This document shows, piece by piece, positions 2,103 to 30,485 of a DNA stretch of 32,148 nucleotides. A program made the translations under genes and the position numbers. Positions within the stretch are counted from its first letter, which is position 1. Every line of letters begins with the position of its first letter. Source of the stretch: Parcubacteria group bacterium GW2011_GWA2_48_9 (GTDB lineage Bacteria > Patescibacteriota > Patescibacteriia > UBA10025); contig LCPQ01000023.1 of NCBI GenBank assembly GCA_001003705.1, forward strand, positions 1-32,148, given 5' to 3'. A model generated the notes under the pieces. It was not told where the DNA came from. It saw only the letters and a program-made list of their open reading frames with translations, and ran no database searches.

Positions 2103-2131
2103 TTGACAGCATTGCTAGAATGTGTTACAAT
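2103..2131 (+). promoter_or_regulatory. Promoter of pilT
   Basis: TTGACA (2103-2108), 17-nt spacer, TACAAT (2126-2131). The predicted transcript start is near 2138, leaving a ~163-nt leader before pilT. That is unusual in this window, where most leaders are 0-40 nt. Confidence 0.8.
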
Positions 2132-2137
2132 GAGAGT

Positions 2138-2300
2138 AGAAAATAAATATAGAAACAAAACCGCATGAAAAATACTTATAGTTTTGCCTCGTCGAACTTA
2201 GCGAAGGTAACGTTCGCGAATTTGATGTATACTGGGACTAGATCTACATCGTTACTTTTTCGCATTTTTCATATAAAAATATTTTCACGAATACCACGAT
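2138..2300 (+). promoter_or_regulatory. Structured 5' leader of pilT with an upstream ORF
   Basis: Three helices can be drawn. P1 pairs ATGAAAAAT (2165-2173) with ATTTTTCAT (2264-2272), 9 bp closing the element. P2 is GCGAA (2201-2205) with TTCGC (2213-2217), or alternatively CGAAC (2193-2197) with GTTCG (2212-2216). P3 is GATGTA (2224-2229) with TACATC (2245-2250). The ATG in the 5' strand of P1 opens an uninterrupted 57-codon frame (2165-2338) that runs into pilT in another frame. It contains LLFRIFHIKIF, nearly repeated in the leader of the DksA-like gene at 30423. No SD precedes either ATG. No known riboswitch is recognised. Function is unknown: a regulatory RNA, a leader peptide, or both. 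Confidence 0.5.
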
Positions 2301-3350
2301 ATGCCAAAAATAGAGGATATCTTATCGGAAGCAGTTAAGAAAGGAGCGTCGGACGTTCATATTCTTGTTGGTCGTTCGCCAGTTTTTCGCATTGATGGTG
2401 AACTAGTGGAATATAAAAAGCATCCCGCCCTTGATGATAAGGAAGCTTCTGACATGATTTTTTCCATTATGAGTCCACGTCAGAAGTCAGGGTATCTCAA
2501 TGAACGGGAGCTTGATTTGTCATTTGAAATTCAGAATACGTCCCGTTTTCGAGTCAACTGTCACTGGGAACGGAATCACCCGGGGCTGGTCGCTCGTATC
2601 ATCAGTTCAAACATTCCGACGATGGAAGAGTTGCTAATGCCGAATGTCGTATATGACCTCATGCGGATGAAACAGGGCCTGGTGCTGGTAACTGGACCAA
2701 CCGGTTGTGGGAAATCCACGTCACTTGCTGCGATGATTAACATGATCGCCCGTGAGCGTGGAGAACATATCGTAACACTGGAGGATCCAATCGAGTTCAT
2801 CTATCCCCAGGATCCGGGTATCAAGGCCATTATCAAACAGCGGCAGCTCGGAACTGATATGCTATCTTTCGGTCAGGCGCTGAAACACGTTCTCCGTCAG
2901 GATCCGAACGTTATACTTGTCGGTGAAATGCGCGATCTCGAAACGATTAGTGCGACTATCACGTTAGCCGAAACCGGCCACTTGGTGTTAGCGACACTCC
3001 ATACTTTTAACGCCGGTCAAACAGTTGACCGTATCATTGACGTATTTCCTCCTTTTCAGCAAACACAGGTTCGACTGCAACTCTCACTCTTCTTAAAAGG
3101 AATTATTTCCCAACAACTGTTACCTAAGGTTGGCGGCGGACGAGTTGCGGCGCGTGAAATCCTCATTAATACACCGGCTATTTCGAACCTCGTTAGAGAA
3201 AACAAGGTTGCCCAAATAAAGACCGTTATCCAGACATCAGCTCAAGAAGGCATGTTTACGATGGATCAGGACCTAAAACGCCTCTTTGAACGCGGAATGC
3301 TCGAGAAACACGTAGCGCTAAGCTATATGACAAACCCACAGTTGTTGTAA
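2301..3350 (+). CDS. pilT: Type IV pilus retraction ATPase PilT
   Basis: Hexameric cytoplasmic ATPase that depolymerises pili and drives twitching motility and DNA uptake. At 349 residues it has normal PilT length. The N-terminal PAS-like part has ASDVHILVGRSPVFRIDGEL. Walker A is GPTGCGKST, the Asp box is VTLEDPIEFIY, Walker B is VILVGEMRDLETI, the His box is GHLVLATLHT, and a C-terminal AAREILINTPAISNLVRENK follows. Its own promoter and terminator make it monocistronic, separate from pilB on the opposite strand. The ATG at 2301 gives the canonical PilT N-terminus. There is no SD. Confidence 0.96.
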   Translation: MPKIEDILSEAVKKGASDVHILVGRSPVFRIDGELVEYKKHPALDDKEASDMIFSIMSPRQKSGYLNERELDLSFEIQNTSRFRVNCHWERNHPGLVARIISSNIPTMEELLMPNVVYDLMRMKQGLVLVTGPTGCGKSTSLAAMINMIARERGEHIVTLEDPIEFIYPQDPGIKAIIKQRQLGTDMLSFGQALKHVLRQDPNVILVGEMRDLETISATITLAETGHLVLATLHTFNAGQTVDRIIDVFPPFQQTQVRLQLSLFLKGIISQQLLPKVGGGRVAAREILINTPAISNLVRENKVAQIKTVIQTSAQEGMFTMDQDLKRLFERGMLEKHVALSYMTNPQLL

Positions 3351-30387: not shown

Positions 30388-30485
30388 ACACGCAAGGTTT
30401 TTAAGGTATATTTAAACCAAGCATGAAGGCCCGTGCACAACGACTGGGGCTATTTCGCCTTCACATAAAGATATTTCATATATGA
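30388..30485 (+). promoter_or_regulatory. Structured leader of the DksA-like gene with a 20-codon upstream ORF
   Basis: TGAAGGC (30424-30430) pairs with GCCTTCA (30457-30463), with an inner GGCCC/GGGGC option; GGTTT...AAACC forms a small hairpin 5' of it. ATG 30423 opens a 20-codon frame (30423-30485) ending LFRLHIKIFHI. Its TGA overlaps the ATG of the main gene (ATGA), a translational-coupling arrangement. The same motif, LFR-I-FHIKIF, occurs in the pilT leader at an equivalent place, and the closing stem differs there by compensatory changes. No SD. Confidence 0.5.

Follow-up and report, generated by a model that had tools for sequence, protein, structure and literature searches.

Directly upstream of pilT, the window (the whole stretch of DNA analysed, 32,148 nucleotides from Parcubacteria group bacterium GW2011_GWA2_48_9) contains a short frame whose 3' end overlaps the start of pilT by 38 nt (Table 1). 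Does this frame encode a protein in its own right, or is it part of a regulatory leader? A previous sequence-only reading of this DNA had described the same frame, which we found exactly as it had been delimited, and had proposed for it a possible new leader family with a start-codon-sequestering stem common to pilT and a dksA-like gene. From comparisons of sequences we conclude that the frame is a real, unannotated small gene, which is under natural selection across two orders of Patescibacteria.

Table 1. Positions of the features discussed in the text (numbering of the window)
Feature	Position	Strand	Evidence or remark
Sigma-70-type promoter, TTGACA-17-TACAAT with extended TG	2103..2131	+	11/12 consensus positions
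A-rich stretch from the end of the -10 box to the small-gene ATG, without Shine-Dalgarno motif	2132..2164	+	33 nt, 58% A
Small gene, 57 aa, MKNTYSFASSNLAKVTFANLMYTGTRSTSLLFRIFHIKIFSRIPRYAKNRGYLIGSS	2165..2338	+	Orthologues adjoin the 5' side of pilT in 8 further genomes; leave-one-out profile p = 1.1e-5
pilT, type IV pilus retraction ATPase, 349 aa	2301..3350	+	PF00437 T2SSE, E 3.9e-43
20-codon frame before the dksA-like gene	30423..30485	+	Judged to lie outside the small-gene family
dksA/traR-type zinc-finger gene, 122 aa	30482..30850	+	PF01258, E 1.5e-6

PilT itself gave strong matches within the window's order (69-80% identical). A frame of 48-60 codons was located directly 5' of pilT in all six genomes of this order, the window's included, and the same position was occupied in three of the four genomes of a second order. 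Each of these nine genomes carried a single copy, 5' of pilT every time, with start and frame conserved at this locus. Leave-one-out profile p values lay between 1.1e-5 and 1.5e-15 within the order, where the window's copy is the most divergent one, and reached 1.6e-31 in the second family. Neither of the other two frames of these leaders gave a profile p below 0.016. The profile itself recovered two of the small genes, those of genomes G098 and G069, which were not among its members. Applied to the second family, the order's model gave 5e-6 to 9e-5 per sequence. For the one frame 5' of pilT this is good evidence; in a whole-database search the match was weak (E 0.14-4). By sequence alone the link between the two orders is thus weak, and it leans on the position of the gene. 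Beyond these orders, the small protein was sought in 381 genomes of the class and in 380 of the phylum, with matches at noise level only. The two best matches in the class outside the two orders were rejected as stray frames, with no pilT there. In a PilT tree, the nine bearers of the small gene formed two clades with good support (two changes), and the deeper branches were not resolved; the distribution may reflect one origin followed by loss, or two gains or transfers. In a PilT relative (L008, genome G038) a short frame, MIRKINIKNKSLFLGRGF, ends just 5' of pilT. This frame was not significant by profile, nor did the small-gene profile match elsewhere in that genome; the frame is perhaps a remnant of the small gene.

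The pattern of substitutions indicated that the protein sequence is what is maintained. In the closest pair of genomes (G031 and G098), dN was 0.17 and dS 1.04 in the small-gene frame (dN/dS ~0.17, in its own frame only), and the differences were distributed over the three codon positions as 14/5/21, a bias not found in the other two frames. Purifying selection at the protein level was limited to the small-gene frame. The remaining pairs, which were at or near saturation at synonymous sites, pointed in the same direction. In seven genomes the frame is offset by 1 relative to pilT; the offset is 2 in G004 and 0 in G069. The small protein is therefore maintained whatever its frame relation to pilT. 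This varying relation is also a strong argument against an N-terminal extension of PilT that has been misread or frameshifted, which might be suspected because the frame in most genomes overlaps the pilT start and ends in a YxKN(R) string whose residues are dictated by pilT codons. In G069, moreover, a stop codon and 21 nt separate the frame from pilT. We regard such an extension as extremely improbable.

The deduced protein is basic (net charge +4 to +10), 48-60 amino acids long, and has the core F..G..h.Y[YF].K. No 19-residue stretch averaged above 0.67 on the Kyte-Doolittle scale, and because of this low hydropathy a membrane span is unlikely. A structure model of the 57-amino-acid protein, calculated from two sequences, consisted of two helices at low confidence (pLDDT 63). 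Pfam and the PDB gave no match, NCBIfam a single match at noise level (E 0.06), and no account of such a frame before pilT was found among the papers searched.

All nine orthologous leaders had a promoter of the form TTGACN-17-TA(C/A)AAT with the extended TG, 24-34 nt 5' of the small-gene ATG, and the sequence between the -10 box and this ATG was A-rich throughout (46-72% A). With promoter and A-rich leader directly 5' of it, the small gene is therefore likely to be the first gene of its transcript. Divergently from the small gene and pilT, genes for a response regulator and a histidine kinase are located at 852-2019 on the minus strand. Throughout the window's order (six genomes) pilT is adjoined by relatives of these two genes, which were not detected beside it in the second order; the two genes may regulate the pilT promoter.

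In eight of the nine genomes the small-gene stop codon lies 13-38 nt inside pilT, the stop/start overlap of a translationally coupled pair. The exception is G069, where the stop precedes pilT by 21 nt and a GGGAGG motif is then found 5' of the pilT ATG. The presence of a Shine-Dalgarno-like motif where the overlap is absent points to coupling and is suggestive, as a single case. Counting against coupling, Shine-Dalgarno motifs seem, by eye, to be usually absent also at the pilT starts of relatives lacking the frame. From the anatomy of the locus alone we infer that the two genes are coupled, and we consider it probable that they form a translationally coupled two-gene unit whose small protein acts with PilT. 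According to this model, the promoter, whose layout is common to the nine genomes, would give rise to a transcript with the small gene first and pilT second. Ribosomes would enter at the A-rich leader and make the small protein; having terminated within the first pilT codons, they would start again at the pilT ATG close by (termination-reinitiation), and small protein and PilT would thereby be produced together.

The chief alternative would be a cis-acting leader peptide, whose translation matters and whose product does not, with stalling or termination within the frame tuning pilT. The frame is short, would stand at the 5' end of the transcript and overlaps the pilT start, all of which would suit such a function. 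This alternative is nevertheless disfavoured by the amino-acid selection seen along the core (dN/dS ~0.17) and by the lack of any conserved fold. In addition, 48-60 codons is long for an attenuator, the frame contains no regulatory codon run, and no terminator was found in the leader, the one weak match lying inside pilT. We therefore consider a leader peptide unlikely. The selection on amino acids, together with the lack of a conserved regulatory RNA fold, favours instead, with less confidence, a basic, probably helical protein that would work with PilT or the pilus base and would be no mere attenuator. Such a protein would probably act on, or pace, PilT. That it belongs to an undescribed family of small basic proteins which, made together with PilT, bind or regulate the retraction motor in the two orders is a tentative proposal that we put forward with some doubt.

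The RNA structure proposed previously was a stem between the conserved stretch and the start region of the frame. Both of the complementary strings are present in the sequence. A compensatory change, on the other hand, is not claimable between two leaders without demonstrated homology, and a conserved covarying stem was not borne out by the orthologues: the nine claimed pairs formed in 32.7% of the cells in six orthologous pilT leaders, compared with a shuffled mean of 36.0%, and four of six slid controls scored higher. In the protein alignment, the 3' arm of the stem coincides with a stretch of extra residues in the window's protein. RNAalifold found no consensus structure in the nine leaders. 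Folding was no better than that of shuffled sequences for the pilT leader (z 0.35 and z 0.23) or the dksA leader (z 0.0), and the start-region duplexes were unexceptional, with 34% and 10% of shuffles equally strong. A 6-bp match in G001 (ATGAGA/TCTCAT) was rejected, as it lies in a different place and gave no duplex-energy signal. With Rfam, the window yielded five tRNAs only, and no described RNA family matched the leader. These comparisons lead us to regard the start-region stem as refuted for the pilT orthologues. Of the features that had been expected to recur before pilT in relatives, the ATG and the frame did so; the HIKIF motif falls in a stretch peculiar to this genome, and the stem was not conserved. 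The case shows that a conserved small gene can resemble an RNA leader.

The proposed kinship with the dksA leader was based on a 20-codon frame, which we confirmed and whose TGA overlaps the dksA ATG (ATGA), and on 23 identities over 27 aligned nucleotides, a count that is correct. The likeness does not exceed chance: the local alignment score of the two leaders (16) was reached by 17 of 1000 shuffles of that pair, and among the 351 pairings of upstream regions in the window 12 scored higher, which places the likeness 13th. The HIKIF codon pattern has exactly two matches in the 1.26-Mb genome, both in this window, where 0.02 were expected. At first sight this is striking; the pattern, however, was written post hoc from these two matches, by a reader who saw only pairs within the window. 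Positions 2270-2284 and 30462-30476 are the genome's only matches to CAYATHAARATHTTY, both in leaders of the window. We treat the paired HIKIF matches as an unexplained coincidence of low weight.

Inspected by eye, the dksA leaders of G001 (same family) and of G002, G003 and G004 (same order) contained neither a comparable upstream frame nor a HIKIF string nor a matching stem. Against the profile of the small-gene family, the dksA-leader peptide scored 0.6 bits and the pilT-leader peptide 57.8. A selected leader peptide had been inferred for both genes: it stands for pilT, where dN/dS in the closest pair of orthologues is ~0.17, and falls for dksA, where the peptide is absent in four relatives. 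Shared control of pilT and dksA is left with no support. A leader family common to the two genes, to which the identities and the two HIKIF matches had pointed, is set against the rank of the likeness, the post hoc pattern, the dksA leaders of the four relatives and the failure of the stem in pilT orthologues, and we consider it highly improbable. In G001, the dksA leader (L032) has, downstream of a likely promoter and ahead of the gene, the sequence GCCACTTTTTAGTGGC with a T run shortly after it (CTGAAAACTTTTTT); this would be an attenuator-like hairpin, of which the dksA leader of the window showed no sign.

Type IV pili are considered important for the contact of Patescibacteria with, and their life on, other cells. 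A small protein tied by gene order to the retraction motor would offer a direct handle on the control of retraction in these mostly unculturable bacteria. Among known systems, the small gene and pilT resemble translationally coupled bacterial gene pairs that employ termination-reinitiation, as the small-gene stop lies inside the next gene, pilT, which lacks its own Shine-Dalgarno motif. The classical overlaps, ATGA or TAATG, are shorter than the one described here. With regulatory upstream frames, such as that of E. coli topAI (PMC12121999) and a copper-responsive one (PMC9426467), the small gene shares a short frame at the start of the transcript, 5' of the main gene. Unlike those frames and leader peptides, the one described here shows selection on its amino acids across both orders, and its leader gave no sign of a conserved regulatory RNA fold. 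In size and conservation the small gene resembles the unannotated bacterial small proteins of smORF catalogues (PMC11364881): 48-60 amino acids, conserved, outside Pfam and with no convincing NCBIfam match. In contrast to these catalogue proteins, the small gene described here is tied to a single neighbour, pilT.
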